A DNA stretch of 64,000 nucleotides from Eutreptiella sp. 'Long Island Sound 2002' (lineage: Eukaryota > Euglenozoa > Euglenophyceae > Eutreptiales > Eutreptiaceae), in contig OZ038402.1 in NCBI GenBank assembly GCA_964036045.1, positions 3,565,395-3,629,394 on the forward strand. The letters run 5' to 3'. Both the position numbers and the translations under genes were made by a program. The notes beneath the pieces are model-generated. The model saw nothing but the letters and a program-made list of their open reading frames with translations. It ran no database searches and was not told where the DNA came from. This document shows positions 1,557 through 31,566 of the stretch, piece by piece. Positions within the stretch are counted from its first letter, which is position 1; each line of letters opens with the position of its first letter.

Positions 1557-2026
1557 TCTCCATAGTGCCATCTCAGAAGATGTGCACTCTTTGTTTTGGG
1601 TCCCATATGTGCTGAGGTGGCAGGGCATGTGGCAATGAGGTCACTGCCATGTCACATGGGATCTTCCTACTTAGCTAGGCTGACCGGGAATTGAACCCAG
1701 GACCTCTCAAAAAGAGGTGCCCAGCCCCCTAGGGTGCATACCACTAGGATAGCTAAGCATTCATGGAAAAACATAGATAAATTCATAGGCTCTGCCCTGG
1801 ATATGTCAGTTCTCAGTCAACTCAGGAAAAGATGATTTGCCTCAAATTGAAAGGGGATTAAGGGGTCCACTCCATATCCTGATTGGGTGTTTGGTTCCAT
1901 AGGTCAAAATGTGTTATCACCACTTTTGGTGGGGCCAATACTAAGATAGAAATGCCTGGATGCTCAGTGCATCCCTAATACAACTAGAGTATGCCTCAAA
2001 GCATTGGAAAAGCACTTTTTCTTACT
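1557..2026 (-). repeat. Element A 3' LTR, truncated
   Basis: This aligns without gaps to 43087-43556 (470 bp, about six mismatches). It starts, in minus-strand sense, with AGTAAGAAAAAGTGC directly after a run of six G, as in B. The last 314 bp of the 5' LTR (42773-43086) have no counterpart here, so the end is deleted or replaced, and no target duplication can be read. Confidence 0.75.
1675..1757 (-). other. tRNA-like module inside A LTR (3' copy)
   Basis: In minus-strand sense there is an A-box-like CCTAGTGGTATGC, a 5-bp anticodon-arm-like stem ACCTC/GAGGT enclosing a 7-nt loop TTTTTGA (anticodon position TTT), and a T arm with GGTTCAATTCCC (B box). The acceptor stem does not pair well. It is probably a tRNA-derived (SINE-type) or pol III promoter-like module carried in the LTR, not a functional tRNA gene. 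A second copy is at 43205-43287. Confidence 0.5.
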
Positions 2027-2032
2027 CCCCCC
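2027..2032 (-). other. Element A polypurine tract
   Basis: Six G on the minus strand, preceded by CAA and followed immediately by the LTR start AGTAAG. The same GGGGGG-AGTAAG junction is at 36321-36332 for B. It would prime plus-strand synthesis. Confidence 0.75.
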
Positions 2033-3079
2033 TTGTGCTGTGGTGGCCACCACTGTCGCATTTTTAGGAAAAAGGGATTTTTTCTTGGCCTTTCCTTGGT
2101 TTCCACATCTACTTGAAAATACCTATAGTTTCCCTCACACAGAAAAATGGGCGCTCACCATGGCTGGCGCTCTTTTGCTGCTCTGTTTGTAACATTTCCT
2201 ACAGAAGACTCAGCGCTCATGGCGCTGCCGGGGCTCCTGTGGCTTGGTTGGGTTAGTTTGGGAGCATGCCAAAACATGTGCATGTGCATCCCTCCCTCCA
2301 AGACGCAGCGCGACACAAACCCAACGCAAGACACAATATACACACTCGCATGGGTTCTCGTAAACCTGCTGGCGAGCTGTGACCTGTCTTAGGGCGAAGG
2401 GAGTCGTAAAAAAATTAAATTGCCCCTTGGTGGGGTCTTGGGTTCTGCTCAGTCTCTCCAGGCTGCTGCGTTTCGGCCCGAACACGGCCTACTCAGCGAG
2501 GCTGCGCGTGGGTATCTGCAGAGGCAGGAATGGGAGAATTATGGACGAATCCACGCAAAAGCGAAGCGACGACACCAAAATCCGTCAAATGACGGCCTAG
2601 AATTTTTCTAAGACAACACACCTGAGCAGAATCCAATTGTGCATCAGAAGCACATTTTTATAGAAATTATAGTCATCTCTAGATTTTTTAAATCAAGAAA
2701 TTCCTACGCATAAAAAGGCGGCGCGCAGGAGCGGCTCCTAGCGAAGCGCCGGAAAATGCAGAAATAATGGCATTATAAACGTATGTCTCACGTAGTCTTG
2801 AAAATGACGAGACACACTTTAATCAATCAACAGACAGATTCCACCCACACTAATAGAAGTATCAAAAATCGAAGAATTCGAAAATCAACGAAAAGACTTC
2901 AATGAATCAGGTATAAACTACACGTATGCTCATCTCGTATGCCGCATACACATTGCTCGTCTCGTGTCTCCGTGAACGAGTCTTGTAGCTGCGCTAACAA
3001 ACCATAGAGGGCTAGATTAGAAAGATTGCAGATGATTAGAGGTGAGATTAGGGAAAAAACAGATGGCCTTCGGCCAGGG

Positions 3080-3146
3080 AGTGGTTGTCACGGGGGGCTA
3101 CCGGTCCTGTCCTGCGGTGCAATGCGGGGCAACTGTGACAACTGCT
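3080..3146 (-). other. Stem-loop in A 3' region
   Basis: The ends AGTGGTTGTCAC and GTGACAACTGCT pair over 10 of 12 positions. The same two arms occur in B but are separated there by its internal inversion (arms near 16117-16143 and 16840-16865). Confidence 0.45.
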
Positions 3147-3443
3147 CTTACAGCACCAACCTCCCTTTTTGTTCCACTGATTAGAACATACACACCGATG
3201 CATAGCGACGATTTCGCTTGCGCTTCGTTTTCCGCCCCACCTTGCTTCACTCTCGAGCGGTAGGTAAGGTGAGTAAGCCCAGGTGGGGCCAACCCGGGTG
3301 GAGTTCGTGATTGAGGTTCAGATGGGCAGGTTTGCCCAAGCCACTCGTGCATGCTCGCGCATTCACACACGCATTAAAGGGTAGGCCACACGAAGTGCGC
3401 ACGGTAAACCTTGTTTAGGCTACCCAGGGGCTCTTCGGTACGT

Positions 3444-3472
3444 TCTTTAAGAGAACCTGAGGAGTCCCTTAA
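3444..3472 (-). other. Hairpin in A 3' region
   Basis: Arms around the loop word CTCCTCAG pair with G-T wobbles. The B counterpart at 34993-35022 is a perfect 10-bp stem (CTTTAAGAGA/TCTCTTAAAG). Confidence 0.45.
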
Positions 3473-3508
3473 CGCTTGCTTGCTTGACAGGGGAGCTGAT
3501 CTTTCAGC

Positions 3509-3590
3509 GTGTTTGCGGACAGTGTATTATAGGTCACACTGAGAACCGTATAATACGGGGAGTGTGGCTTGGTTCCTCCGCCGCAAACAC
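3509..3590 (-). ncRNA. Conserved 82-nt RNA structure, A copy
   Basis: In element sense an outer 10-bp stem (GTGTTTGCGG with CCGCAAACAC) encloses a GTATTATAC hairpin and a second possible pairing GTATTATA with TATAATAC. The B copy (34877-34958) has the same length. The outer closing pair changes G-C to A-T, and the pair flanking GTATTATAC changes C-G to G-C. Such paired changes support an RNA structure; its role (packaging, dimerisation, export or replication) is unknown. Confidence 0.55.
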
Positions 3591-3667
3591 CCCTTCATTT
3601 GCCTTTGCTTTACAGGTGGGCAGGTAGGGTGATTGGTGCAGCAGCATACCATTTTTTTCATGCCCTG

Positions 3668-4090
3668 CTAAACAAGGGCGCAGATCACACAAACAAGTAA
3701 CTCCGCCTCTGCCTGTGGCAGAGCAGGGAGTCCGACTTCATCGACATCTGCGCCGTGCACGCAAAAAGAGCACCTCTTCCCTCCAAGCCCTAGCAGGGGA
3801 AACGCGTTGTGGCGTCCCCTGTTAGGCCTCAGTTTCTTAACAGCGCTGTGTTCTCTTGTCTTCTTCACAGGAGGGTCGCTAGGACCCACGACATGTTCTT
3901 CAACAACACCCAGTAGAGTGTGCGTGTAGGAGTGGTAGTCCTGAGTGGGAGCTTGAGCCAGTTGCAGCAGTGCTCGCCCACCGGGATGGTGCCACTGTAG
4001 GGTGTGTAGGACCTGTAGTGCGTGTGTCACTGTCCCACCCGTTTCTTGCAATTTTAGCAGGGTTGGTGGGCTGTGGCAGTGGTTAGGTCA
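3668..4090 (-). other. Possible small ORF in A 3' region
   Basis: An open frame of up to about 140 codons without a convincing ATG. Its second half matches a frame in B (34535-34753) without indels over about 180 nt: PPVKKTREHSA, PNRGRHNAF, LLGLG and a Cys pair (CSFCVH in A, CSRCVH in B). Identity is high at the nucleotide level and not concentrated at third positions, so conservation may be of RNA instead of protein. Function unknown. Confidence 0.3.
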
Positions 4091-4410
4091 GTGTTTTGGC
4101 CACTTAGCAAAACGGCGTTTTCATGCCTTCATAGCTTTTGGCCACCCCTCCCTGTAGTAGACAGATAGGTAGGGAAAACAATACGTGGATTAGTACGCTG
4201 GGTATTCCCCAAAGGTTTTGCGCCAGCACAGAAATTGGGCGCTTAGGGGCGGGGAGACCCGGGGCGTACCCCGTGGCATCAATAAGCCAACCCTCCAGGT
4301 TTAGCAAGCGTGCAGACTTGGGTATAATTAGGACACCACTTCTGCGGCTTGCTCTCAGGACCTTAGGAATAGCACACTCACACATACACTTTGGCAGGTA
4401 AGGGTAAGGT

Positions 4411-6205
4411 TCAGTCCTTAGCTTTAGTCTTGGAGGCAAGCGTCTCAGCGAGCCTCAGCAACTGGCCAAGGTTGTTCTGGGATAAGTAGTCAACCAGAAC
4501 TGAGTATAGGCGTCCCTCAGGTAGAACAAACGCAGAGAAGGGCTCCCAGGTGGCCTCTTCGACTCCAAACCCTTCCCAGAGGGTGAGGAAGCGCCAACCC
4601 TGGCGATAGCGGTGGCGTAGGACAGACTTCACCAGGTAGAAGCCCTCCTTAGCCATCTCCTCGGCGTTCATGTCGGGGAGGTCACCTTCAACTTCCATAG
4701 GGCTGGCAGCCCCTTGTAGGTCCAGAGCGGCGATTTCCTCGTCATTCAGCTCCCACTCCTCCCCACAGAGGTCTTCAGGATCATAGTAGCGCTTCAGGTG
4801 TTGAGCAGCGCACACCAGGGTCCCCCCTAGACGGGGAGAACATCGCACGGTGATACGGTGTCCATCCACTGAGAGAATCTTGTACGGCCCGAAGTATGGG
4901 TCATCGCTGGTAGAGCGTGGCCAGGCGGGTAGTCGACTGTGGTGCACCAGCACCCAGTCCCCCTCTTGGTAGGTGGCCGGTACTCGGTGCTTGTTCTTCT
5001 TGTTCCACTGACGCTCCCTCACTCTCTGGAGCATTGCCTTGGCCTTGTCCACCTTCGCTTGTTGCTCTTGGACCCATTCACCCACAGAAGAATGGGTGTC
5101 CTCTGGATAGGGGGCATGTAGGAACCATGCCGGGCGCCCTAGGAATAGCTCATGGGGCGAGTAGCCAGTAGCTGAACTCTCTTGGGAGTTCATCATCAAG
5201 GATATGACGGGGAGTAGTCTCACCCAGTCTCTGGTGCGTTCAGTTTTGCACCATATCCGTACGTTCTCCTTCAGGACACGGATCTGTCGCTCACATAGGG
5301 GGTTGCTCGTGTGCGAGTAGGGAATCCCCGTAGACACCTGGACATTGAGGGATCTCAGGACCCTCTTGTACCAACCGGTATCTGAGCGTACTCGTACGTC
5401 CTCATCGGAGTTGATCTCCTTGGGCGCCCCATAGACACAAAACCACTCCTCCAATAGTATCTTGATAGTCTCCTCCCCGGTAATGTGCTTGGTACATGGG
5501 AACACCCTGGTAAACCTGGTCAACCCACAGGTTACCACGAGGGCGAAGTCATAGCCCCCGAACTTCGGCATCTCCGTGTAGTCCACGTATAGAACACTGT
5601 TAGCACAGTGAGGGATGGGCAGGGTCGAGTAGAGACCTCTGTCCCTGATATCCCCCGGTTTACAGGACCTGCACGGGCACTTGTCCACGATAGGCTGGAG
5701 GGTTTTCCGCAGTTGGTCGTCAGTCCACGTAGTGTGGAACCACAGCTTGAACAGCCTCAGGGTACGGTCAGCACCCACATGACCGCTGGACTCATTGGTC
5801 CACTTCAGCAGCGCTGGGACTCGGTCACTAGGCACCACGATGCGGTCCTCGTGCCAGAGGTAGCTCTTGTCCCTCTTCCACTGGTCTTGGTTGACCAGGA
5901 GGGGTTCAAGGCGTTTCTCCAGGCGCTTGTAGATATCCCCAAACTCCTTCAGGTACTCTGATTGTTGGAGTCCATCCAGGGGGCGTATCATCGTCATGTT
6001 GAGGTCCAAGTGGACGTCCATACGGCTGAACGCCTCCTTAGCCAGCGCTTCAGACCGGGCACCAATCAGGGCGTCGAAGTTGTTGCGGCTGATGTAGTCG
6101 GCACACTCGTTCTTCACTCCCTGGATATGGTGTACCGTCAGCCGTAGTTGACTGAGGTAGGTCCACCAGCGCCGTAGCTTGGCCTTCTCAGGTGGGGGGC
6201 CCTTC
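4411..6205 (-). pseudogene. pol: Element A pol, 3' part: integrase and chromodomain
   Basis: A continuous open frame from the B insertion point to the pol stop (about 597 codons). It starts with the end of the RNase H/connection region (GPPPEKAK, then ADYISRNNF). A zinc-binding-type H...CPCRSC segment follows, then the integrase core with Asp in DYTE, Asp in INSDEDVR and Glu in NPLCER, an SH3-like tail (VLVHHSRLPAWPR, DPYFGPYKI), and near the end a chromodomain (WRFLTLWEGF, ATWEP). The integrase core has SDED where most gypsy elements have SDRGPQF; B shares this. The half itself is intact but cut off from the rest of pol by B. Confidence 0.9.
6202..6205. repeat. Target-site duplication of B, left copy
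   Basis: CTTC directly before the B 5' LTR. The right copy is at 37036-37039. Removing one copy restores the A pol frame. Confidence 0.85.
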
Positions 6206-6914
6206 AGTAAGAAAAAGTCACTGCCATGTCTTTCTTGGAGGGCTTGATCCAGGCTAAGCCCCCCTTAAAACCCTTTGTTGATGCTAAGACAAACTTAAGT
6301 GTTTTTATCTCTCTTTTGTTGCCTAAAGTACACTTTCTCAAAGTAACTAGGGTTGTGACCCTAGCCCCCCCATGAAGTTCACCCCTACCACTCAACTGAG
6401 CGGAGGTACCTTCCTTCATGGAGGACATACCAAAATAAAACAGGCATTTCATGCTTGTTGGCCTTGGAGGTTAAGCCTAAGTGGTCTCCCACCCCAAGAC
6501 CCCTATACTCAATTGTTTCTACCACTTATTGTGGTCCTACTTTGTAACTGTATCTGAATTCAGTTGCTTGGCCAAGTCATTTTCTGTGTGGTCCTGACAT
6601 CTATGCCCCTCAGTCCTAACAAGCACCATTTCACCCAAACGAGTGCACATGAAGTGGCTAATGCAACCTCTGAGGCTAGAGTCTGACCAATTTTCATATA
6701 AAATCTTTTGTATTATCCATTTGTGATTGAATCTATGTGTATAAACCTGCTTTGTCTATCTGCAGCCCTTCTGTGTTACACTGGATTCCAAAACCAATCA
6801 TTGATTCGATCCACATCCTCTTATTGCTCTACTTGCTGCTTTGGTTTGGGTTTTCAACTACAAAACCTGCAGGACATCATCAAAATATCTAGGGCATAAA
6901 GCAAGGACATCTTT
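6206..6914 (+). repeat. Element B 5' LTR
   Basis: Direct repeat of 36327-37035. It begins AGTAAGAAAAAGTCAC and ends GACATCTTT, so it lacks the usual TG...CA ends. Limits are set by the flanking CTTC duplication, the PPT and the PBS. Confidence 0.9.
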
Positions 6915-6915
6915 C

Positions 6916-7419: not shown

Positions 7420-7649
7420 TGTAACGTACCACGACTTGACGTTAACCCTGAGATCCCAAATCCCTCAGGCGGCACCATGCAGAACAACTCCGTAATCACA
7501 GCTGATTTAACAAACAGGACATTTGGTGCCTAAAACAAGCGATAATGTTTTATAATAAAACATGCGCTATTTACAACACAGTGCGATCTCGATTTATCTA
7601 CAATGCGCATGCGCGACCTGCGATGCGGGCAGTGCACTGGTCTGCTGCA
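7420..7649 (-). repeat. Element E LTR, left copy
   Basis: 230 bp, identical to 9940-10169. In minus sense it contains a TATA-like TATTATAAAAC and the palindrome-bearing word GGTCGCGCATGCGCA (7604-7618). Confidence 0.9.
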
Positions 7650-9504
7650 CGCCCACCCAAGACAGTCCAAGGGGACCAGGGGCTGGCTGACACACACAAA
7701 CAGTGGCAGCCAGTGCACTGCGTACCAAAAACAGAGCAATAATGTACACAAAAAAAAATAGACACTCAGAAAAAAAATACCAAGCACACAAAAATTTCTA
7801 GAACACCCCGGTGCCCAACGATGGACCCCCACCTGGTGTCAGGGGCTCTTTGTGTGTTTAGTATACAAACAAAATAGCCATTTGCATCCTGTGGCGTCAA
7901 CCTTAAAAGGAGTCTTGCCAGGCCCCTCTGCCCATCCCCCAATGGTGGCCACCCATTGGTTAGGTGGGGCAGCGTTCCTATTTACCTGCTGACCCCATAC
8001 AGGAAAAAAAAATTAGCAACTACTCACTGCCCATTGCCACTTTTCCTGCACCAAAAAGAAAACCCCTGCTCAGAAGGTTGGTTGTATAAAAAAAAAACAA
8101 CAACACAACACAAACAGACATAGCAGCATATTGACAATAAAACTGCATGTGGACTGACCCACAGGGTACAAACCCTTACGCTAATGAACAAAGCTGCTGG
8201 TCCTCCAAGGGACTTAAGCCCCATATATCAGACTTATCTTAAAATTGTGCGCCAACTTAACTTCTGAGCATCTCGAAGGGGCATGGTGCTTGGCCGGGTC
8301 TTGAGGGGGGGATTGGCCTGCCTTGATGGCTTGAGGCCCCCCAATCAGTTCCTGAAACACAGGAACTAAGAGGAAAAAGGATACAATAACACGTCCATAT
8401 ATGCATCAGCGCGACGTCGTGTGAACAGCAAAACTGCGAAGTAACACCCAAATCACATCGGCCAGTGCAAAGCAAACTGCACAGTGTCAGTCCTGTAACA
8501 TGCTGCATGCAAAGCAGTGCGAGGCAACAGCAAAATGCAAAGTAGACTTCCTGAGCACTGCTCCCAGGGCACACAGGATGCCAGCAGAACGAAACACAGC
8601 AGAAAACAGCACCACCCACGTGCCGCGCACACTACACAAGACATGTACCTGCACAGGTTGACTTCGGAGCGGGGCCTTCCTGCTCCACGCTCACCCGTCG
8701 TCACTGCGCTTGGCGTCCTTGCTCCTTGAAACACAAGGCAAGGGGAACGTGGCAGACAGGCGAAAAGTTAAGACATCACCAAATCAAAATCTGACTGTCG
8801 AACCAACGAACAGCAGGGGAGGGGAGGCAACAACCGACACAAAGCCTAAATTCAGACAAGTCCGAAACCTGCTCCCTTAGATTTAGTGCTGAAAAACTGA
8901 AGCAAGGGTGCATGTTTGTGCAAGGCTCTGAGCACAAAAACAGTGGCCTTCAAGGGCAAAAAGCCCTTGGCATCAGACCCAGTTTTTCCATCTGACTCAT
9001 TTGAGTTAGTTTTCGCTCCATGTTATAAAGAACTGACGAAAGCCTGGAAAACAAGAGGAGCGGAGGTATCCAGTTCCAGGATGAGCCCACAAATGCCTGC
9101 GGTAGCGAATATAACACGTGGTGAAGCTGAGCTGAGCATGGCGCTAGGTTATGGCTTGGAATGCTGCCACACCCGTGGCTTTCAGAACAAGCGCGCACCA
9201 ACACACGCACCACACACAACCTTGAGCAGCTCGCTTCTCAGCGCCTGCCAAACGCTCTTTTTGTTATCGCGCCCCGTCACTGAGCGGTCCTGGTCGCTTC
9301 TGCGACGCGGCACGTCTGCGCCGTGCGCCATTTCTTGCCGCCACGAACACGGCGCTGCGACGAATCCAGCGCCAACGGTGCTATACTCGGTGGCACGGTG
9401 TCCTTGTCAACAGAAACGGAGGCCGTGTCGAACATAGCCAAAGCCTCCTCCAAGATGACGTCGAGGCTGATCGTAAGATGATGTTGAGGCTCAGCAGAGG
9501 AGGC
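7650..9504. other. Element E internal region without a supported gene
   Basis: About 1.85 kb of non-coding internal sequence. Short frames on both strands have Cys-rich or low-complexity translations and no recognisable domain. Confidence 0.5.
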
Positions 9505-9939: not shown

Positions 9940-10169
9940 TGTAACGTACCACGACTTGACGTTAACCCTGAGATCCCAAATCCCTCAGGCGGCACCATGC
10001 AGAACAACTCCGTAATCACAGCTGATTTAACAAACAGGACATTTGGTGCCTAAAACAAGCGATAATGTTTTATAATAAAACATGCGCTATTTACAACACA
10101 GTGCGATCTCGATTTATCTACAATGCGCATGCGCGACCTGCGATGCGGGCAGTGCACTGGTCTGCTGCA
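9940..10169 (-). repeat. Element E LTR, right copy
   Basis: Identical to 7420-7649. It is the 5' LTR if E is read on the minus strand. The shared 15-mer is at 10124-10138. Confidence 0.9.
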
Positions 10170-11942
10170 CTAGGGTCCTACGCGCACTCGGGTCCTCCGT
10201 CCACTGCATCCCTGCCAAGACGAACAAGACCTGAGTATCCAAGACCATGTTATCCAACCCCAAGGGCTCCCGAAGTGGGCCCAACACGAGTCGAAGAACA
10301 ACATCATCCAAGGCCATCCTACGGAGCCCTGGATCACACGGCCGAGCTGTTGGCCAAACTCCTGTCTGGATCAGAAGATCCAGATGTGACGGCCCTATCA
10401 GAGGCCATTAAGGCAAAGCTGGGTATTGCAGAACCCTTACCCAAGCCTGAGTTGCCCTCTCTCTCTCCAGGGCTGAGTACCCTGGCCGAAGATCTCAAGA
10501 GATCAAGGGTCTCTAGGCTGTTGCCTAAGGTCACCTGCCCCAGCCCCTTTCACCCCCGTGCCAGGACAGTGCCTATGGCTGATCTACAGGACGTGCCTGT
10601 CACAGAGAGTGAGAGAAGAGGGCTGTCAGCCCTGGCCCCTCTTGCCGGCGTGTCGCCTTCAAGCCTAACTCCGGGGGGTGGAAAGACGGGCAGACCAATT
10701 GCCGAGGCGAACATCCAGCTGGAACTGACGGAGTTCGACCCCAAAAATCTGCCTGAATGGGCAGAAGAATTTGCAGAGTTCCTTTTGTTGACTGGCCAAT
10801 CCCATGTGGATGTGGCCACCAAATGTTCACTGCTAAAACGCTCATGCAAAAAGAAGTTTTTGCAAAAACAGGTTAAACAGATTGTGAAAACCTGTTCTAC
10901 CTGGGCAGAGGTACTCCTGAGGTTGGAGAAAACATTCCCAGTCTATGAGACTGACCTCAGCGTACGCACACAGATCGAGGAGCTACCTATGCTCACTGAG
11001 TTTCCATCCGCTGCGCGAATTTCTGAGTATGTGTGCGACTTGGAGTACTTATTTTCGAGGATGAACGTGGGCTCCTACGGAGCCACTGAGCCCCACCTGT
11101 GGCTCATGAGTAAGATCCCCCAGCGTACGTGGGATGATTGCCGCTCCACCTCTGAGAGGAAGAGCAGGACCCACTCGTACGATGCACTGATGGATCTCTT
11201 AATTGAGCTAGCTCTTCAGAGAGAGAATGACTCCCACATGGAGAAATTCCTCAAGAAGCATTTGGGACGAGGTGGTACCCCTACCCCCGAACGTGGCGAA
11301 GGGAAGGGGCATAGAAATCCCACTAACACCAACCAGGGAGGTGGTAAAGGGAGGGGCAACCTACGTGCCATGAACGAGGTTCAACCTGATGCAGGCACAC
11401 CCCCCCTGTTTTACTGCCGACCTGTCAATGACAAGGGGGGACCTTGTCATGCCTCTGACTGCGATCTCCGCAGTGGCTGTATGCTGCAGATGAAACGTCA
11501 GCAGCACACCAAAGATGGGAAACAGGTGACCCATCAGGACCACTTCAGGTGTACCATCACCTGTGGTTACTGTGGCAAACGTCGTCACTACGAGGACGAA
11601 TGCCACATCAAGAAACGCGAGAGTGACAAACTCAAGCGTCAGGAGGCAGAGCGCCAGAAGACCCAGACGCCCGGCAGAAATCCCCCGACTGGGGATAAAG
11701 GTAAAGGAGGTGGCAAGGGGGGTGGCAAAACTGGACCCCCTAACCCCCAGAGGCGCTCATCAGCGCCCGTTGCTACACCCACTCCTGCTGCTACACCCGC
11801 TCCTGCCGCAGGTGTCCCCCAGAAGCGCCCCCAAGGGGATTACGCTACCCCTGAGGGGAATAATTCTAAGAAGAGGCGCTTGGCCTGGATGGCCAAGTCC
11901 CTCATGGCTGCAGGGGTGGATGTGAAATTCCCTGATGAGGAA

Positions 11943-11945: not shown

Positions 11946-14900
11946 GGGGGCGGCTCCGAAGAGGAGGACTTGGTTTTCTGGATCCTCGTGAAAATCGGGG
12001 ATCAGGTTTTTCGAGCGGTGCTTGATACCGGTGCAACACTTTCCATAGTGGCCCGGCGCCTGCTTAAAACATTCAGGAAAACTAAGACCGTGGCCATAAG
12101 AGTAGGGGATGGGCGTACCATCCATTCCTTGGGGGGGGTCGATGTGACCATATGTCTGGGCGACGAAACCGTGACCCAACACTGCAGAGTCGTAGACACT
12201 GACGCCTTTGACATCGTCATTGGCACCGACTTTCTAAGAAGAAACCCGCAGGTAAAAATGCTGTCCCTACAGCGTCCTTACTCTTTGCACTGCGACTTTG
12301 GCAGTGGGCTATTCTCCGTTCCTTTGGAGCTGTCAGGACGAAAAGAGTCTGGGCTGCGCTACGCAGCCAAGACGAACTATCGTACTGAAAACTACCAACT
12401 GGCCCGTCATGTTCTTGAAAATGGACTGGCGGCCCTTCAGGTAAACCTGGATGAGATCCAGGTGGAATTGTTTGCGAGCCAACAACAGCACATCATGCAG
12501 TTGTACTGCTCGAAACAAATGAACAATGCTTTCCGTTTCTTCTGGAAAGCAATGGGCCTAGCGTATGCTAACCCTCCCTTCTCCCCGCTCGCGAAGGTTC
12601 TAACCAAGATCGCTTATGAGGGAGGAAGGGTTGTTATGTGCACCCCTGACTGGGGTTGCTCTGGTGAACATGCTTACTGGCGCCGTATGCTAGACCGAAT
12701 GACCGTGGGAAGAGTGCAACTCCCCGACGGCCCCATCTATGTGCCTGAGGACTCAGACACAGCTATGCAGGCCCCTGAGTGGGCCAGTTTCCTGCCCATC
12801 ATCGATGGATCTCTCAATCCTGTACCCCTGTGTGACCTGGACCAGGTGCTACTAAAAGAGGTCATGGCCGAAAATCGTGGCCTGACCCTTTATGATCTCA
12901 AAAATCGATCTCCTGAGCACCTATCTGCCACACTTACAGGGTGTGAGTCTCCTGATGACTATCTGGAACCTGCAGCTGTAAAAGAGGATGCTGACGACCA
13001 ACTGTCTGAGATCGCCAGCACTATTCCCTCTGTTGATCCCAGCTGTGTTGACCTAAAACATAGTGCTTTCCTGGCCCAGCTGTTGCTAGAGCAGGTAGAT
13101 CTAGAGTCAACCTCTGAACCCGCTTCCTCTGTTAGGAAACCAGTGCTACACATACAGCCTGTGCACACAGGTGAAACCGTGGCCTGGAGTGCTGATGCTC
13201 TGGCACGGCTTGCTGCTAATAACATGCCATTGTCTGAGCATGACACTCAAGAACTCCGACGGCTGTTGTACCTGAAGGCCGAAGGTATTGAGCGCCAAGA
13301 GCGGCTGCAATACCTCAGACAGACCTGGAAATACTCCATCTGGTCTGAGGAGAACGATGAGTCCTATACGCTGCCTGATCCTGAGATACCTCTAGTGTAT
13401 TCTCCACACTATGGGCAGCAATGTCCCCCTGAGTGGGACGATGGTACTGTACCTGCCGAAACTGCTGATCGGCATAAAAAGAAAGAACATGGAAAAAGCA
13501 ACCTCCATGCTGAGGAGGATTTCCTTCAGAAACTCGAGAGTCTTAACCTTGACCCCCGCCTGAAGAAACTGCTTATAACCTATGAGGAGGTGTTCGGCGC
13601 CTTGCCGCCTCCGCTTTCTTGTAAAAAACTGGTCCAGATGGACCTGAAATTGAACCCAGAATTTGAAAAGACGCGAGTGAGGCGTCGTCCCTATCCCGCT
13701 CCACAGTAACAGGTCGAAGAAATCGAGTGCCAGATCCAAGAATGCATTGATGCTGGCCTCGTTGAAGAGTATAAACACGGGGACTATCCCCATCACTGCA
13801 GTCCCTGTTTCCTTGTTGCTAAACCAGGGTCGACTGCCCTACGTCTTGTTGTAGACTATGGTGAGGTCAACAAGAAAACCCAGAACCACTCAGGGAGTAT
13901 TCCTAACATGGAAAACACCCTGGAGCGTATTGCCAAATGCAGGTATAAGACCAAAATGGACAAACGCTCCGGTTTCTGGCGGGTTGACCTAACCGCCGCA
14001 GCTCAGGAGCTGCTGGCCTTTATAACCCCTAAGGGTCGTGTCTTCAAGTGGAAGGTTATGCCTTTCGGGGTGGCAAATGCCCCAGCGCTCTTCCAGGAGC
14101 TTATGAACAAAATTTTGTACATATTGAGGCGCAGGCCTCTAGTACAAGAGTTGATTTCTCGGGGTGCAGAAATGGAGGCTCACATCGACGACGTGAGTTT
14201 GGGTACTAATACCAAAGAGGACCACGTCCTTCTCCTCCGTGAATTTTTCACTGTCTGTCAAGAAAACCATCTCTGAATCAAACTTGAAAAATGTGAGTTT
14301 ATGAAAGAGGAGATGGAGTATTTGGGTTTCGACGTGGGGTATGGCTGGTGGAAACCAGCCGCGTCTAAGATGCAGCCCCTACAGGACATGCAGATTCGCG
14401 ATGACCCTAAGAAGGGTCTACACGATGTGAGGAGTTTTGTGGGCGCCTGTAATTTCTATCGGCGTCACATCCACAATTTTACTTACTCCTCTGCACCCCT
14501 CACTGACCTGATCAAGAAAACTACTCCCTGGAGGTGGACCTCCAGAGAGGAAGAGTGTTTCCAGGAGTTGAAGAAGAAGATTGCCTCCTCCAACTGCCTG
14601 GGAGTGCCCCGCCCTGAGGGCGAGATAGTCCTGATCACTGATGCCAGTGATGTAGGGGGGAGAGGTACGATCTATCAATGGCAGGAGTTTAACCCCGCTG
14701 AACTAACCCACTGCCATTATCGTACTACTGGACTGAACCGTGATGGTTCGTTGAAACATGACTATCCTACCAGTGAGTGGCGACTGGTGCCACTGGGACA
14801 CTGGAATTGGAAATGGAACCAAGCGCGTTCCAACTACAGCACCTATGACCAGGAACTCCTGGCCGGTATGTTGGTGCTATCGTCACAATCCCGACTCCTG

Positions 14901-16115
14901 GGATCTAACCCTATTGTCCCGCTGTGTGACCAGGAGCCTGTGAAGTCTTTTCAGAAGGGCCCACCACCAGAAAAAGCAAAGCTAAAACGGTGGTGGACTT
15001 ACCTGAGCCAGTTCAGGCTGACAGTGCATCATATCCCCGGGATTAAGAATGAACTGTCTGACTATATATCGCGCAACAACTTCGATGCGCTTATTGGTGA
15101 GAGCTCTGAGGCGCTCGCCAAAGAGGCTTTCCAGCGTATGGATGTCCAGCTTGACCTGTCCATGCGCACTGCTGGAATCCTGGAGGGTTGGAGTCTAACC
15201 GACTATCAGTCAGAGTATGAAGAAATTCTCCAAACCCTCAGCACTGGTCTCGAACCCCGTGTCATTGACGGGCACCAGTGGTATAAAAACAATCAGTACC
15301 TCTTCTACGAGGACCGAATTGTGGTGCCTGAGGCACGACTGGATGGGTGCCTACAGTGGTCCCATCTCAGTTCTGGTCACACTGGCGCTAATCGCTCAGT
15401 GGACTTCTTCCGTGAGTGTTTCTACTCTAGTCTAACCCTGACTGAACTGAGGTCGCGTATGCAGACCATTGTGGATGCTTGTGGCTGTCATGCCAGCAAG
15501 CAGAGCGACAGTAGGGATAGGGGCCTGATCTCCAGCTTACCCATACCCTATTGTGCTAACTCTCTTCTCTACGTGGATTACATCCACGGCCTACCAGGCT
15601 TTGGCGGCTATGATAGTTGCCTCGTGGTCACCTGTGGTCTATTGCGCTTCACCCGTGTGTTCCCTTGCAATAAGAAAATCACAGGTGAGCAGACTGTAAA
15701 AATGTTGGTCGAACAATGGTTCGAACCCTATGGAGCACCTAAGCAGGTGCACTCTGATGAAGATGTACGCATCCGCAGTGACACTGGGTGGTACAAACGA
15801 GTGCTAAATGCCCTCAATGTGGAGGTAACCACAGGTGTGCCCTATACTCACACGTCTGGTGGAGCAAAACTTAAGAATCCTGATGAAACAGGAGCGCACC
15901 AAGGACTGGGTACGCCTAGTGCCCTGGGCAGTGCTGTCCATGAACTCACAGCGGAGCTCTTCTACGGGTTTCACCCCCCACGAACTGTTCCATGGAGGAC
16001 GACCTGCTTGGTTCTTCAAAACCCCCTTTCCTGAGGACTTCAAGAGCCCTGTGGGAGATTGGCTGGAACACAAGCAGTCTCTGGCTAACCAGGCTGGTAC
16101 TAACCTGAGGCACAT
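11946..16115 (+). pseudogene. pol: Element B pol: protease, MTase-like domain, RT, RNase H, integrase core
   Basis: Order: aspartic protease with VLDTGATLS (about 12024-12050); MTase-like domain (12450-12809) with VELFAS, YANPPFS and VVMCTPDWG; a variable acidic linker; RT (from about 13570) with MPFGVANAPALF and HIDD instead of YXDD (about 14184); RNase H (VLITDASDVGG); integrase with DYIHG, HSDEDVRIRSD. Lesions: TAA at 13707-13709, TGA at 14274-14276 where A has Arg, and a short deletion near 15860 that shifts frame in the motif THTS-NPL-VE. The C-terminal integrase tail and chromodomain are inverted at 16116-16821. Confidence 0.88.
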
Positions 16116-17629: not shown

Positions 17630-20381
17630 TGAAGCGGTACCCAGAACCCCATGGCTAGGTTACGGCATACAACCGGTCTCCGGTCCACTAACCCCATGTA
17701 CGGAAGGGAAGACGGCCGTTGACGCTCCATTCCGTGCCGTAAAGCCCCGCATCGGCAACCGATGCACCGCCAGCGGAGATTTGTGTATCAGAATATCAGG
17801 AATCAACAGGGTTTTATTTTCATATTGTTTCCGTCAAGTTTTACGCTTCCGTTCTGATATTCACTGTTTTGACTGTTGGCGGTTGGATCGCGACTTTACT
17901 GTAACCGCCAGTTTAACTGTTTATAATGGAAATTTTAACGCAATCCGTCACGAAGGCTCCAAAGCCTTCAGGAACTGCATGGACGCTTCCGCAATTTTCA
18001 CATCTTACACTCGCAACCTTAATCCGAATTTTTCAGGATGTCGAAATCCGATTTTCGACTTCGACATCCCCGCACTTGATTTGACCTCTTTCGAGTGGAC
18101 CTACGTGCTTCCCTATGCACGAATCAACTTTCCTTTTATCCTGCCCTCCATTTGTCTCAAAGATATGGGAAAAACAAAGTTGATTCGTGAGGCCACTTGT
18201 GAAGGTCATATCTCGTGTTGCTTGCGAGGAATAACGATAAGGAAACGTGGGATGTATTCACAATACTCCCGACGTAATTTAGGAAGCATTATATGCCTTG
18301 CGTCTCCACACGTGCGCGCTAGCGTAATGGATCATGGTCAAGAGGTTAGAGTATGCGTTGTAACTCTTTGGCCATGATATTGCGTGCGTTAAGATAACTT
18401 TCGAGTGTAGCGCGCGAGTGTTGGTGTTGCATAGGAACTCTTCTTGAGTTCCTATGAGCGATAGACACAAAGTTATGCCCTTGGAGGGGCATGACATATC
18501 GTGGGGGGAGCTACCTTTTTGGGCAATATGGAGTATGTGCCTTGGGTTGTGTTGCGTGCCCATTTGGCGGGTCCATTGCTCCAAGCTAAACCCGCCAATG
18601 GACCTCATATTGTGCAAGCCCCTTCTTAATACTCCCTACGATCAATTACAAGCGTAACCTTCGTGAAGGGAAGCTTGTGTGGTGATCCCGAAGCGATGCG
18701 TTGGGAGCAAGGTGTGTATTTTGCAATTTTCCATATTTTCATGTGCCCACTTGGGAGGCGGCGCTCGTAACCTTTCAAAGCGCCCCAAGTGGAGCACATA
18801 TGTGGAATCGAAGGTCATTAGTGTCAAGTCATTGTGTTTAGAAGGATTAGTTGATTGCACGATCCAAGCCGAAGATATTATAATATAATTGTGCACCTTT
18901 CAATGCACTTTTGTGTGTCTTTGTGCCAATTTTGCCATTTTTGGCCCGTCATGATGTCAAGTGGCGACCGTGTATCTCAACGTTGCGTTCAATTGACATC
19001 ATGACCCAAGTATGTTATGAGGGTACATACTTCGGTGCCCAACATATCTTGGACCCGGCGAATAACTCCTCTTAGGCTTGGCATACCGTGGCCGCCATGT
19101 TGGCGATTTGGGACTATCCCAAACCATGGGCTCACTTGGCGACCCTGCCATTCCCAATACCGGAGGAGTTGGGCGATGCCCAAAAGATATGTTGGACACG
19201 TATGACTTGATACCAATCCTATGGCACACTCCGGTCCGAGTCGGGCATGTGCCTCATTTGCCCCAACCATGAGTGTGCGCATTTTTGGCCATTTTGAGCA
19301 ATTTTCCACTTTTGTTGCCCGCCGTGCACCATGTTCTAACCTTCGTGCACGCCGGACGCTTGGACCAATGGACCATATATGACATGGGTGATATGGGCAT
19401 TGGTCCCCATGGTTCACACACCACGTGGGCGAAGCGGAGCAACCTTCGTTAAGGCGCTAGCCCAAAGTGACCCAGTTTTGGGACCCCAATTTCCCCCTTC
19501 CGTGTGGTCAATTGGCGGCCCCATTTCTCTAAGCCCATGGGGACCCCGGACCTAAATTCAAGTTGTACACTCAGATAGAAGTCCTAGGTCCTGCCTCCTA
19601 CCCTGTGAGCCATTGGCCTTACCTTGGCCGGGCGAGCCACGCGTGGGAATGACCCCAATTTTGGTGATTTTGGCATCATGACCCCTCTTGACTCATCCGT
19701 GTTGCCCTGATGCCGGGACCTCAGAGGGAACCAGGTTGGGTGAGGGCTCCAGGGAGTTCGTACTCGAAGGGCATAGGGTCAGTTGCCTCGTCCCTACCTC
19801 TGGCGGGTCCGGACGAGAGGTCAATTTTGCGGATTTTTGAGTTGATATCAGTTTGGGCTGAAACAGCCCATTTTCAGCTACCAACTCCTGGGTGATAATG
19901 GCGGGGCCATATCTCTCGCTCAGAGGGGAGTTGGGACTTGCCGTTAAGGGAGCATAGGGAACCACTGTCGGTTGGCCTTGGAGCTCCTTGGTTCCGAGGA
20001 ACTCGCCTGTGGCTAGGCGGGACACCTCTCCTATTGGCAGGGTTTCAGGGTCCGGACTGAGCAGGGCATGGGTTGTGTTTGAGCCCCGCCCCCACCAGCC
20101 ACTGAGAGGGTCGGACCTGGGATTGGGATATGAGTTGGGACTGAGTGTCTATTGTCCCATGATGCCCTTACCCCAGTCCAGTCTTAACCCCATGTGTACA
20201 TATCCTGATGTGTTGTTGTACATACTTTTGTTCCCTCTTTGCAGAGTGGCAAGGATTCTGAAACGCTTTGTCACATGACATGAGCGTATTGATGCCCTTG
20301 TGAGCGTAGTGCTTTGCCTGCCTGCTCACCTGTGCGTGTCACCGCAGCGTCCCGTGGCCGGCCCCCCACGGGAACGCGTCA
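17630..20381 (+). repeat. Element D 5' LTR (2,752 bp)
   Basis: Begins TGAAGCGGTACCC and ends GGGAACGCGTCA; TG...CA ends. It aligns to 31567-34534 with roughly 35 substitutions plus one 216-bp gap: sequence at 33398-33614 of the 3' LTR is missing here at an AGCC/AGCC microhomology near 19463. Confidence 0.92.
18431..18455. other. Perfect hairpin in D LTR
   Basis: ATAGGAACTC and GAGTTCCTAT form a 10-bp stem with a 5-nt loop TTCTT. It is preserved in the 3' LTR at 32368-32392. Confidence 0.5.
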
Positions 20382-20779
20382 AAAGCGTTTCACCGCCGCG
20401 GGGTTACCCAACCCTCGCGTGCCACTCGGGGCCACCAACCCCGAGCAGCGCGGCGCAGCTCGCAGCTCGCAGCGCCACTCAGCGACAGCGCCGAGTTCGT
20501 CACGGAGCCCGCAGCGCCGTCCAGAGCATCGCCCTGACCGCGCAGCAACCGTGAAAGAGGTGCACAGACCAGGACTCCTGCATCAGCCCCATCGGCCGAC
20601 CCGGAGTCCCATCGGCCGACCAGCAAGGCCGCGTCAACCACCTCCACAACCACCGGCTGACCAGCACCAGCCGCACTTCCAATCCAGTGCTGCAGCACCC
20701 ACCTCAACAACCACAACCAGTTCGTTGAGTTGAACGAGTGCATACCAAGGACCTCAAGATCAACTACGCCCCCGCTGCC
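20382..20779 (+). other. Element D leader
   Basis: About 400 bp between the LTR and the probable gag ATG. GC- and Pro/Arg-codon-rich, no clear PBS at its start (AAAGCGTTTCACC). Confidence 0.5.
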
Positions 20780-23700
20780 ATGGTGAATTGGCAGGAAGCG
20801 GGCAGGACGTGGCCGCGGCCCCACCCCCATGCAGCACGCCTGCTGCTTCGGTTGGTTTGGGACCAGCACTACCGCCACAGCCACCCCCAGTGCGAAGGCG
20901 GCATGCCCAGGAGCTTCGAGCTCCGCACGGACATCGCCCCCGACCGCCTGCAGGCCGTGGAGGACTGGCTGCGGGCGGAAGGCCAGAGTACCGCCACCAG
21001 CAGAGGCGCTGGAGGACGTGGACCCGGCCGGACAGGCCCGGCGAAGGGCTGCGCCCCGACGGGATTGAGGAGGAAGAGGACCCCAACGCCTACCCGTCGG
21101 GCGCCTCGATCAACGTCTCCCTGTGGGACGTGATCGAGAAGAACTTCCCGGAACCGGGGAGCGAGCGCAGGCTGCAGGGCAGCAGCAGCGCGTCTCCGGG
21201 GAAGGAGAAGCGGTCCGCCGGGGACAGGAAGCGGGACCGAAGGTGGCGGGAGTACCAGGAGTCCCTGGCCGCCGAAGCCGCCCAAGGCGCCAAGGGCGGA
21301 ACCCCAGCCCCCAGTCCCCAGCGGGCCAATGGTGGTCAACACCCCGGCTCCACCACCCTCGGCGACTACATCCGAGTCGCCAGGCAGACCAAGGCCAAGC
21401 CCCGTCCGCTGCTCCTGAAGCCCCAGCAGGCCTCAGCAGGCCCCAGCAGCGACGTGGAGTCGGCCCACCGCGGGAGGATGCCGGCCGACCAGGCCAGCTC
21501 CAGCAGCAGCGCCGCTCCCGCCCAAAGGGATGTGGCGCGCGCCTGTGAGCGCATCTGTAGGGTGCCCTGCAACCTTCGGGTTGCCCGGCAACGGGCCACG
21601 CAGCGGAACGCTGCCGTGGAGGGCGCCGTCCGCATCGCCCATGAGGAGGCCACCGAGTGGGGCAGAGGCATGGACTACCACGCCTCTAAAGTGGCAGCCA
21701 TCGCGGCCGGTCTCACGGCTGCGGCCGCCCATGAGGCAGTGGCTGCCCGGATCAGGGCAACCGACGAGGAAGCCCGCCGGACGCAGGAGGCCATTGCCTG
21801 CAAGGAGGCCGAGGTGAAGGCGCTGGAAGAGGCGCTTGCCCAAGAGAGGGCAAAGAAGGAGGCGGAGGAAAGGGCCCACGTCGAAGCAACGGCTAAGGCC
21901 CAGGAGGACGCCGCCAAGAAGGAAGCCATCGAGGCCGCGCGACGGAAGGTCGCTGAGGAGAAGGCCAAGACGGAGGCGGAGCTGGCAGCGTTGGAAGCGC
22001 AGAAGGCGCGGCTGCAGCAGGCCCGGGAAGCCGAGGCGGCTCGTGCTCGGGAGGAAGCCGAAGCGCGAGCTGCCGCAGCCACCGCCGCCGCAATGGAGGA
22101 GGCGGAGGCCAAACTCCACCGCGAGACTCCCCCGGGAGGATCACGAGTGGAGACCCTTCGAAGGCTTTTCGAAGGGGACGCCTCCTCCAGGATGACGCTG
22201 GATGAGGCGGACACGGGCAGCAGTGGGAGCAGTGGCACCACCGCCCATCGACGGAGGAAGGGCAAGGGGAAGACCCCCGAGAGGCCGCGGAGGCCAGCGG
22301 GTGGACACCCCCACGACAGTGACCCCTTCTTCACCGCCAGTGACGGGGATGAACGAGGCCGCCGACATCGCCAAGTGGTGGCTTGGACGGGCGGAGGCGG
22401 CGGAGACGTCCCCATGGAACCGGAAGGTGAGGATGAGCATCTCCCTCCTCCCTACCGGAGCTCGGAGTCTTCCGTGACCGAGACGCCCAGGTGGGGCGAC
22501 ATGGACGAGGATGACGACATGGAATTCGGCATCACGAAGAGGCGCCCATCCTCGGACCCACCGAGGCAACCCGGCGGAGACCCACCGGGACCCCCTGGCG
22601 GAGGACCATCAGGACCCCCTGGAGGACGCCCACCAAGTGGACCCCCTGGAGGCGGACCACCGGGCGGGGGAGGACCCCCTGGACCGGGCGGACCCGGCGG
22701 AGGCCCTCCTGGAGGACCCCCTGGGGACCCCGACGACCCACCAGGGAACGGCGACCCGGATACCACCTGGCGGTCAATTGTCTACCTCCACAGGAGAGTC
22801 CAGTTGCTCGAGCTGGAGGTAGACACGGGCAAGGGCGAGATGGCTCGCATCTCCAGGGTCGCCGCGCGCGCGCAGAAGGAGCTGGACATCGCCAGGGCCG
22901 AGGCCAAGTCGCTGACCAACGTCGTCAGCGGCCTGCAGGAGAGGCTGGACGCGCTGGAAGCCCGTGGGAGCGTCGGCAGCGACCACCCACCCCTGGAGTC
23001 TGGCTCGTCGGACGACGGCTGGGGACCCGGACCAGGTCCAGGCAGACCCCACGCCCCCGGCGGAGCCCCCAGGAGTCGCCCCAGCGCCAGTGCCCCCTCT
23101 CTCACCGCCCCCTCTCACCACAGCGCGGGCCGCCGCAACGAGCGCGTGCCGCCCGGCAGTGGCAGTGAGGAATGGCGTGATGAGTGGCTCAGCGCGGAGT
23201 ACCGCAACCGCCGTGCTCCACCGCGGACGCCTGTACGCCCCCGACGCCCGGCACCAGCCCCGGTGCCAATCCCAATGGCTGGAGGACGTTATGGTGGACT
23301 CAGGGACGAGGTCCCCAGAGGAGACGTGGAGTGGGATGTCGGTGAAGGTGAGGACCTGGATCTGGACCTGGAGGAGTTCGACATCAGCCCGCCGCGTGGT
23401 GTACGACGAGAGGGTACTGAACTCAGCCGCCGGCGCCGTGATGAGGATGCGTACATGGAAGCAGTACGGCGTGAACATTTTGGTTCAGCGTACGTGGAGG
23501 AACCGCGGCGTAGCCACAGGGGTTCCATGGAGGAGATGGACATGGCGGCCGTGGGGGTCCGTGGGCGAGGCCGATGGGAACCTCGGTCGACCTCGCGGCC
23601 GGCGTTCATGGTCTCTAAGGCCGCGGACGCCGCCGTGTGGGAAGACTTGAAGGACATCAAGCCCCCCATGTACGATGGCAACCCCCTCAACCTCGACCGC

Positions 23701-25092
23701 TTCTTGGAGAAGCTGGACGATTTGGGGCTGACCGTCACTGAAGACCTGCCTCCCGCGGATGCGGAGAGATACGTCTTCAAACGGTTCAGGTACCGCCTGC
23801 CGGAAGTGCTCGGCGAGCTATACTTCGTGGCGACCAAGGAGGGGAGAATCAAGACCCTCAGGGAAGCCAAGAAGTGGCTCAACGAGCAGGAGCGGGTGGA
23901 CGCTCCGCAGGTGGCTGCCAAGCGCTGGAAGTCCATCAAGCTTGAGCACGATGGACGGGAGATCCGCCTACGAGATTGGCGGGACTTCCGAGGGAAATAC
24001 ACCCTCTTCCGCCGCAACGTGGAGGATTGGAACGAGGGTGACGAGCAGGCTCGCCTGCTCTCCATGCTGCCGGAAGCATGGATCAAGAGGGTCACCAAGG
24101 AGGAATCCAAGAGGGCCAAGTCCAACCACACGGTCAAGATGATGCTCCCCAAGGAGTATCATACGAACGTGGTGGCTTGGGCGAAGAAGAACGTGGCCCG
24201 GGATGTCAAACGGCACTCCCTGCGGAACGCTCTTCTCATCACCGTCTCGGGCGATCGCGAGAAGACCGCGATGTGGCGCCTTGACGATTGTGGGTTGAGC
24301 GGCCAGACCATCCGTCTGCAGCCCATCCCGGCGCGGATGAGCTGCGACGAGATCCTGGAGTGGGTTGGCGAGGAAGTACTCAAGGAGTACCGAAACCTCC
24401 ACCACACCCGCGGGTTGAGGCCCGGCGACCGCGACGTCAACTACGTTGGCGAGGGACCTGGCGGGGAAGCCGCCATGGACCCAGCGGGAGCCGGCGGCGA
24501 TGAGACCCTCGTCGACGATGACGACGACGATGAGCCCGCCGAAGTGGCCGTTTGTGCCTTTGTGGCCAAGAACCTGAGCGCGGGGAGCAAGCCGGGAAAC
24601 TGGAAGCCCCTGCAGCAGGGTTGGAGGAAGCAGGAGAAGAGGGACCCTCGCCGCATTGGCGACCCTCCGCTGTCCTTTGGGGAGTTCATACGAGCTCACC
24701 CTCAGGGCTGTTTCGTGTGTTATGGGAGGAAGCGAGGCTTCAACCATGACCACCGAACATGCCCTGTCCACAAGGCCGACACGGAGGCTTACAAGAAGGC
24801 GCACGGGTCGAAGAAGCGTGCGCCCGCGGGTATCCGGGAAGCCAAGATGGAGGTGGACAAGGACGAGCTGGCCAAGCTGATGTCGTCGGTGGGGACCGAA
24901 TTGGCCAAGGAGATCCAGGAGATCAAGCGGAACTGGGTCCCCAGATCGGACAACAAGAACAAGGAGAACAACCAGAATGACCAGAACAAGGACAAGGACA
25001 AGAACAAGGGTAAGAAAGGGGGAAGGAAGAAGGGCATCAACGAGGTTGATGCGGAGGAGAACACCCCTTCCTCCACAACCGACGCCCCCTAG
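20780..25092 (+). pseudogene. gag: Element D gag, unusually long (about 1,430 aa)
   Basis: The likely start is ATG 20780 (MVNWQEAG). Coding-like peptide moves through all three frames between about 20980 and 21065 (LQAVEDWLRAEGQ, then EALEDVDPAGQ, then GIEEEEDPNAY), so two frameshifts damage the N terminus. The rest is one frame to TAG at 25090. Parts in order: Ala/Glu/Lys-rich coiled coil (about 21660-22120), Pro-Gly-rich repeats (about 22575-22750), a second helical segment (22800-22960), a Ser/Pro/Arg-rich linker, a retrotransposon-gag domain (about 23620-24200), and a Cys-His motif CFVCYGRKRGFNHDHRTC (CX2CX8HX4C; wider than the usual CX2CX4HX4C). A Lys/Asn-rich tail closes it. Confidence 0.85.
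25090..25092 (+). promoter_or_regulatory. In-frame gag/pol stop of D (TAG CGG), probable readthrough site
   Basis: Gag ends TTDAP-TAG. The same frame continues CGG AGC CCC with no stop for 196 codons into the protease. CGG after the stop is a context that favours readthrough in other systems. Confidence 0.65.
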
Positions 25093-28000: not shown

Positions 28001-30075
28001 TGGAGCAAGTGCTTGACGACGGGAGGCACGTGCCCGTGGCCTTCTGGAGCCGAGTCCTGGCGGAAGGACAGAGACGGACGTGGACGCCCCGTGAAAAGGA
28101 GGCGTATGCCATCGTCATGGCTCTCAGGAAATGGGCTGGGTACATAGCCCTCCATCCCGTCACCGTCTGCACCGACCATCAGAGTCTGCAGTCGTGGCAC
28201 AGGGAGCACGTGGACACCCCCTCAGGTCCCGCCTCCCGACGGGCAAGATGGCATGAGACCTTGGCCAAGTTCGACCTTACGGTTGTTTATATTCCTGGAA
28301 AGGATAACACCGTGGCGGACTGTCTCAGTAGGTGGGCCTATCCCGCCAGCAAGGGCATGCAGGATATCTCTGCCCATGGCGATGAGGCTGAGACCGCTGA
28401 AGCCAAGAGAATCATCGAAATGGAGCGCCTGATGGAGGAGGAGGGTGCTAAATGCTTCGTCGTCATGGCTGCAGATGCCCCCCTCGCGTCGAGGGTGAGC
28501 AGAGCGGTCAGAGTCCTCGCCCCTGATGGAGCTGAGTCCGACAAGCACCTCTTCCCGGAGTCTTGCCTCCAGGACGACTGGACCGACGACTACGCCAAGT
28601 CTGAGGCCTTTGCGGCCGAGTATAGGGCTGTGACCGACCCTGACGACGGGCAGAAGTGACCAAAGGGGCTGACTGAGGAAGATGGCAAGCTCTACCGGAA
28701 TGGTAAGCTGCTAGTACCAGAGTCCCGGGTGCTCGAGCTGTGTGAAGCTTGCCACCACCACATGCTGCACCCAGGGGTCAAGAAGCAAGCTCTTGACATG
28801 CAGCGTCGGTTCGAGATCGACCATATCGTTCTCTACACCGCCATCAAGAGGGTCAGGAAGGGTTGCTCCGTCTGTCAGGCCTGCAATCCCGATAACCGGA
28901 ACGTCAAGGGGGATCCCCAATGGACCCCGGTTCCTGACCAGCCCATGGAGAGTGTGGCCATGGACGTCTTCTCCATGCCCGAAGTGCACATTGGCAAGGA
29001 GACCTTTGACTGTGTGGTTCTCTGTGTGGACCGCCACAGCGGCTACGTTGTAGCCGTTCCGGCACGCAAAAAGGGGTTGCTTGCCAAGGAAGTGGCAGTC
29101 ATGATGATTCGTCATTGGCTGACCGTCTTTGACATCCCCCGCACCATTTGCAGTGACCGAGGGCCCCAGTTTACTGGTGGCTGGTTCAAGGCTATGTGTT
29201 CCCTCATGGGAATACGTCATGCCAAGAGCGTCGCCTATCTCAGCCGGTCTAACGGCCGTGCTGAAGTGGCTGGACGGCAGCTGTTCGAGAAGCTGCGCAA
29301 GATCCACATCACCAATCCACGTCGGAATTGGTTTGAGGAGATGTGGCCTGCTCTGAAGGCCCATCATGACACCCCCACTCCGGGCGGTTTGTCCCCTCAC
29401 CAGATTCTTTTCGGCAGGGACCCCCTGGGTAGGGGACTTCCCTTGTCTGGTGATGGCATGGCTATGGATGCCAAGGAGTTCTTCGCGCGGCAAGAGCAAA
29501 CGGCGCGGGACATCCGCCAGCAGCTTGAGAAGGAGCATGCTGAGCGTCAGAAGTCCGCCCCGAGCTCGACAGCGCAGAAGTTCAGGGTGGGAGACCCGGT
29601 GTGGGTGATCAGACCCCGCCCTATGGGCACCCACCGCACCAAGACCTGGTTCACACCCGGCGAGGTGGTCCGCAGGATTGGTGAGGACACCTACCGCATC
29701 AAGGTGGGTCACGGACAGTTCCGGGAGCGCCACGAGAGTCAACTCCGTGTGCGGGAACCCGACCTCCGTGGCCAACATGTGTCCCTGAGCTATGCCGCAC
29801 ATGAGGCCGACTCGGACGACGACTACGCTGAGCAGGACGACTATACAGTCGAGAAGATCCTTGCTCAGCGTCCGAAGGCCTCGGCACCCGGAGGTCTGGA
29901 GTTCAAGGTTCGTTGGCGAGGCTATGGGCCGTCCCACGACACCTGGGAACCCGTCTCCTCGTTCGTGCCGCGGGTCAATACTCCCTTCATGGAGTACATC
30001 CGCAAGCACAAGACCAAGATCAACGTTTCGGACTTGGCAGCACTCACCCGGGCGATTGCAGCCAGGGGTGCCTGA
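25093..30075 (+). pseudogene. pol: Element D pol: protease, MTase-like domain, RT, RNase H, integrase, chromodomain
   Basis: One frame of about 1,660 codons with two nonsense codons: TAG at 25681-25683 and TGA at 28657-28659. Protease LVDTGAQVSLL (about 25530-25565). MTase-like domain 25987-26406, with LDAFSSGTS, IHCPRWD (motif IV degenerate) and VLVVPM. RT: VVDYRGLN, HGYHQMPL, MPMGVTNGNAAFQ and FVDD (about 27472). RNase H: LRTDASDYAIG to IPGKDNTVADCLSRW. Integrase: H...H...CSVCQAC zinc motif, Asp in MDVFS, Asp in CSDRGPQF, Glu in NGRAEV. SH3-like tail GDPVWVI. Chromodomain YTVEKIL, FKVRWRGYG, DTWEP near 29850-29960. Ends TGA. Confidence 0.92.
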
Positions 30076-31555: not shown

Positions 31556-31566
31556 AAGGAGGGGGG
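31556..31566 (+). other. Element D polypurine tract
   Basis: AAGGAGGGGGG immediately before the 3' LTR start TGAAGCGG. Confidence 0.85.

Follow-up and report, generated by a model that had tools for sequence, protein, structure and literature searches.

Among retroelements, a Dam-type methyltransferase (MT) domain is described for DIRS elements, where it follows RNase H (PMC3266345, PMC3783388); its function is given as unknown in the available part of PMC3266345. Dam-like enzymes are called structurally unrelated to cytosine DNMTs in the accessible sections of PMC5890265. The words gypsy and DIRS are absent from the main text of a 2025 survey of N6-methyladenine (6mA) in eukaryotes (PMC12695648), and a paper on brown-alga transposable elements describes, in its accessible part, a Sola DNA transposon that encodes a ParB-MTase protein, and mentions proteins resembling it from green and red algae (PMC12477816). 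No Ty3/gypsy element whose Pol includes an adenine MT was found in the literature searched, which is weak evidence of absence, as bioRxiv and most subscription papers lay outside the search. Here we analyze a stretch of 64,000 nucleotides from Eutreptiella sp. 'Long Island Sound 2002' (assembly GCA_964036045.1, contig OZ038402.1; the whole stretch is hereafter the window), in which elements of four families, A–D, carry a Dam-type MT domain (PF05869). By gene order and Pfam matches, without reference reverse transcriptases (RTs), we assign the families to Ty3/gypsy.

The Dam-like identity of the domain, proposed earlier from the letters of the window (the sequence-only reading), is as good as settled, and is backed by Pfam, PHROGs, tblastn against phages, profile–profile comparison, and predicted folds; from sequence, an enzymatic role is likely. 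At E < 0.01, the segments of B (9.3e-4, 19.3 bits), C (8.2e-5, 22.8 bits), and D (1.1e-3, 19.2 bits) match Dam and no other family in a scan of 24,736 Pfam models. On whole frames, PF05869 covers the same MT segments with E-values of 0.0079 (B), 0.002 (C), and 0.017 (D). All these matches are under the curated Pfam cut-off of 28.1 bits. No PF05869 match is seen for the A segment or, at E <= 0.01, for P0012, a database protein near-identical to B; P0135 has no Pfam match at E <= 0.01. The window segments, being under the cut-off, are tied to PF05869 through their homology to three further families of the same genome, E, F, and G. In all five frames scanned from these families (L003, 42.2 bits; L055, 39.2; L041, 36.4; L042, 36.3; L048, 29.4) Dam scores above the cut-off and RVT_1 lies downstream in the same frame.

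A hidden Markov model (HMM) of the E, F, and G families, built from five rows with no window sequence included, ranks C (8.9e-44), D (3.6e-18), B (9.4e-12), and A (6e-4) first to fourth among the 503 open reading frames (ORFs) of the window; the next ORF has an E-value of 3.5, and a joint search of 20 shuffled sets gives 2.4 at best. Chance similarity is thereby ruled out. Pairwise, the MT segments of A and B are 47% identical over 151 amino acids (aa; E 6e-55), C matches D at 1e-10, B matches C at 4e-9, and E matches C at 4e-22; profile–profile comparison of A/B with C/E/F/G gives a probability of 92%, with small alignments. The words quoted by the sequence-only reading (VELFAS, YANPPFS, CDAFANREN, LDAFSSGTS, etc.) are present in the translations at the positions it named, and the segment it described is indeed common to A–D; the limits it gave are too narrow, the segment being somewhat longer. 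A C-terminal stretch, LP..Y....P..W....DG.L, is also common to the MT segments of A–D.

By sequence, phage enzymes are among the nearest relatives found. An HMM of eight phage Dams places C (2.8e-7), B (3.3e-6), and D (1.4e-5) first to third among window ORFs (next 0.084; best E in 20 shuffled sets 2.8); A is not among the best eight. In profile–profile comparison, again with small alignments, C/E/F/G match the eight phage Dams with a probability of 98.9% (P 2e-17, 126 columns), and A/B more weakly, with 70% (P 4e-5, 110 columns). Against one phage Dam, family E gives 7e-12, C 1e-6, D 0.001, and B 0.41, the last being no support by itself. In PHROGs at E <= 0.1, C (0.0013) and, weakly, B (0.063) match a single family, phrog_111 'DNA methyltransferase', which also ranks first for E (4e-11), F (1e-12), and G (1e-9); A and D have no match at this threshold. 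Search of B against phages by tblastn yielded three records, none annotated as a methyltransferase, and of the 24 stretches of viral_contigs that matched the E-type alignment A4 none is a relative. The predicted fold of B matches methyltransferases, and the predicted structure is of the Rossmann-type S-adenosylmethionine methyltransferase kind, of the adenine-N6 class.

The domain is not confined to the window. When 150 of 3,813 candidates in the 2.28-Gb genome were scored, 93 matched PF05869 at E <= 1e-3, all 93 above the cut-off; among 14 control genomes only E. coli was positive. Twenty-eight of the 93 places were inspected (the best 8 and 20 hand-picked), and all 28 belong, by tblastn and sequence, to families E (19), F (8), or G (1). 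For each of the families B, A, and D, 150 or more near-identical places are present; the numbers of first-look candidates (29,554, 24,402, and 31,080, respectively) should not be read as copy numbers, and families may share candidates. Several of the Dam-carrying gypsy families are abundant in this genome.

In N6-adenine methyltransferases, the N or D of motif IV and the next P hold the target amino group. In alignment A5 this motif reads NPPF in B, C, F, and G, NAPF in E, NPRF in A, and CPRW in D; hence, the pattern [DNS]PP[YFW] is seen in B, C, F, and G and is absent from E, A, and D. We also compared copies within families, as the sequence-only reading had suggested. In 120 database proteins of B the four columns hold N 115, P 118, P 117, and F 107 times; by a fixed-flank pattern NPPF is found in 80 of 120, with other letters in 19 and the pattern absent in 21. 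The 10 proteins of C have NPPF in five, other letters in two, and no pattern in three. Among loci with the flanking pattern, NAPF is seen in 14 of 18 for E (19 loci in total; DAPF 2, NTPF 1, NASF 1) and NPPF in 6 of 7 for F (8 in total; NPPC 1); INAPFS is also present in a metagenome protein that shares 49% identity with E. All 12 copies of A that were fetched, out of 150 listed, have NPRF, and all 10 of D, likewise out of 150, have CPRW. Motif IV versions are therefore family properties, with some decay in single copies. The letters assigned earlier to the four window families stand, while the term 'degraded' for A and D needs rewording: present in every copy examined, NPRF and CPRW belong to amplifying source elements, which rules out damage to the window copies as their cause. 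As CPRW lacks the N, D is the family in which the enzyme has most plausibly lapsed; the effect of NPRF and NAPF on a putative enzyme is harder to judge.

The MT lies upstream of the RT in A, C, D, E, F, and G. Its placement between an aspartic protease and the RT, proposed for all four window families, holds for A, where both are found by Pfam, and for B, which has the protease in the window and both protease and RT in P0012, again by Pfam; for C and D the position upstream of the RT holds, while no protease is found in their frames by Pfam at E <= 1. Between A and B, 66 of 140 residues of the MT region are identical, with no gaps, compared with 61 of 136 aligned in the protease and 49 of 180, with 57 gaps, in the linker following the MT. 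Copies L003 and L049 of family E have a dN/dS of 0.148 (dS 0.586, dN 0.087, 166 codons); the other ten pairs, of little divergence, range from 0.27 to 1.57 and are of little weight. Stops or gaps led to the exclusion of seven E loci. The splits A+B, C+G, and E+F are common to the MT and RT trees; D is weakly placed, with support of 69 in the RT tree and, in the MT tree, 58 without and 79 with phages.

From the computed homology, predicted fold, position, shared splits, and family-wide motif versions, we infer a history and a function, including a single acquisition, cofactor binding, substrate, timing, and benefit, and give the whole a probability of about 0.5. The PF05869 domain would have entered Pol upstream of the RT in an ancestor from which several of this genome's Ty3/gypsy lineages descend, and the MT would then have been inherited together with Pol. 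In the NPPF families (B, C, F, and G), and probably in the NAPF family E, the cofactor-bound MT would act within the virus-like particle and methylate adenines in freshly synthesized complementary DNA (cDNA) of the element itself, which would enter the nucleus already marked and hence be shielded or resemble host DNA. In A and D, catalysis would probably be reduced or gone, and the domain would persist as a component of Pol that binds nucleic acids or has a structural role. Somewhat more tentatively, at less than even chance, this would make a long-lived Ty3/gypsy group that marks its cDNA before integration with its own adenine-DNA methyltransferase, in which sister families altered the motif separately (NAPF, NPRF, CPRW) and active and lapsed writers coexist.

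Several observations weigh against this self-marking model. In the unrooted MT tree, the phage Dams branch among the gypsy domains (support 47); a single acquisition is thus not demonstrated, and our confidence is lower for this reason. Of the ancestral acquisition proposed by the sequence-only reading, an old acquisition is supported by the splits shared between MT and RT trees, as far as sequences indicate, and its being one single event is not. Further, NPRF and CPRW are universal among the examined copies of two abundant families, and none of the nine aligned rows shows GxG in the region of motif I.

The source of the domain is a question independent of its function. The MT may have come from a DIRS retrotransposon by recombination, rather than directly from a phage or bacterium: the accessible parts of the DIRS literature report a DIRS MT found by the same PF05869 profile (PMC3783388) and DIRS RT and RNase H close to those of Ty3/gypsy (PMC3266345); the position is unlike, however, the MT standing after RNase H in DIRS and before the RT here. 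We regard this origin as quite possible, if somewhat short of an even chance. The motif IV versions of A and D and the lack of GxG would be expected if the domain were non-enzymatic in all families, the methyltransferase fold serving as a nucleic-acid-binding, dimerizing, or spacing module of Pol. This we consider rather unlikely, because NPPF is kept in B, C, F, and G, NAPF is kept in E and in the metagenome protein, and the domain is under purifying selection in one E pair. An RNA substrate is improbable: the MT would put N6-methyladenosine on the genomic or messenger RNA of the element, in the particle or before packaging, and alter stability, packaging, or sensing; against this, the nearest sequence relatives found are phage DNA adenine methyltransferases and PF05869, the latter also in DIRS. 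Likeness of fold does not reveal the substrate. That the domain is no methyltransferase, being instead RNase H-like, a tether, or dUTPase-like, is hardly credible, as the profile and structure searches proposed with the sequence-only reading answered with Dam and methyltransferases (Dam alone at E < 0.01 in Pfam for B, C, and D, E, F, and G above the cut-off, methyltransferase folds for B) and nothing in Pfam, PHROGs, or the fold searches supports it.

Coordinates are collected in Table 1. In D and C the DNA encodes RVT_1, RNase H, and rve, in this order, across in-frame stops of the window copies; this order was examined in C and D, and E, F, and G were examined for RT and RNase H. Terminal direct repeats were established for D and C. 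The phage-integrase family PF00589 has no match in the 14 proteins scanned (7 at E <= 1, 7 at E <= 0.01).

Table 1. Features of the four families in the window (limits of the Dam-type MT are approximate)
Feature	Position	Strand	Remarks
B aspartic protease	11988-12242	+	PF13975, aa 15-99 of frame 11946-13709
B Dam-type MT	12381-12845	+	motif I-like VELFAS, motif IV NPPF
D upstream long direct repeat	17630-20381	+	pairs with 31567-34534; two pieces, 98.8% and 97.9% identical
D Dam-type MT	25942-26406	+	motif IV CPRW
D reverse transcriptase	27145-27648	+	PF00078
D RNase H	27865-28272	+	PF17919/PF17917
D DDE integrase core	28939-29223	+	PF00665, 31.4 bits, cut-off 32.6
D chromodomain	29842-29952	+	PF00385, above cut-off
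D downstream long direct repeat	31567-34534	+	pairs with 17630-20381
A reverse transcriptase	37669-38061	-	PF00078
A Dam-type MT	39211-39684	-	motif IV NPRF; without direct Pfam match
A aspartic protease	39856-40116	-	PF13975, E 5.8e-4, under its cut-off
C 3' terminal repeat	53270-53748	-	extent as matchable within the window
C DDE integrase core	56528-56731	-	PF00665, 28.0 bits, cut-off 32.6
C RNase H	57629-58033	-	PF17919/PF17917
C reverse transcriptase	58256-58750	-	PF00078
C Dam-type MT	59460-59950	-	CDAFANRENKRF, motif IV NPPF
C 5' terminal repeat	63522-64000	-	reaches window edge; pairs with 53270-53748 (99.4%)

The window copy of B (11946-16034) is broken: its protease–MT frame ends at an in-frame stop (13707-13709) between MT and RT, and the next long frame starts from 14277; some other B copies have frames of at least 1600 aa. 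The C and D frames of the window are likewise interrupted by stops between Pol domains. Just upstream of the B gag frame lie identical 231-base direct repeats (7420-7650 and 9940-10170). The terminal repeats of D (17630-34534) are about 2.8-3.0 kb long and 98-99% identical, and D has a G+C-rich frame of 1452 aa (20734-25092) with Ala/Glu/Arg-rich and Pro/Gly-rich stretches. Two A-type stretches, 1557-6915 and 36327-43556, have pieces of 710 bases (98.7%) and 470 bases (98.7%) in common, and either belong to two copies or were rearranged around the insertions of B and D. Several short repeats in direct orientation, of about 390 and about 320 bases and with 89-91% identity, lie close together at 44419-48795.

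On the question of why retroelements carry DNA methyltransferases, these families provide a second, differently placed Dam-type occurrence after DIRS. The natural motif IV variants of abundant gypsy families also offer a comparative test, i.e., 6mA on cDNA and new insertions of NPPF families versus CPRW and NPRF families. Compared with known systems (the published ones as described in the accessible parts of the papers), the families share with DIRS1-like elements a retroelement Pol with a Dam-type adenine MT found by the same Pfam profile (PMC3266345, PMC3783388). DIRS elements, however, have the order RT, RNase H, MT, a tyrosine recombinase, and neither aspartic protease nor DDE integrase, whereas here the MT is upstream of the RT, not downstream of RNase H, C and D carry rve and terminal direct repeats, and D has a chromodomain. 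The orchid Ty3/gypsy elements with AlkB also combine gypsy with an extra domain related to adenine methylation, but that domain is an unrelated RNA m6A eraser (demethylase) in an additional ORF (PMC9289625). Phage Dams of PF05869 (e.g., Webervirus) share a co-linear core of D.xA..N, a W region, NPP[YF]S, and WF, with 28% identity to E over 123 aa; they are free-standing, with NPPY in the eight aligned, while the gypsy domains form part of Pol, with NPPF, NAPF, NPRF, or CPRW. In KnitGypsy-Dnmt3 of Klebsormidium nitens, too, the Pol frame of a gypsy element includes a DNA methyltransferase, and purifying selection is reported; its enzyme is a cytosine Dnmt3 and a separate acquisition (PMC5890265).
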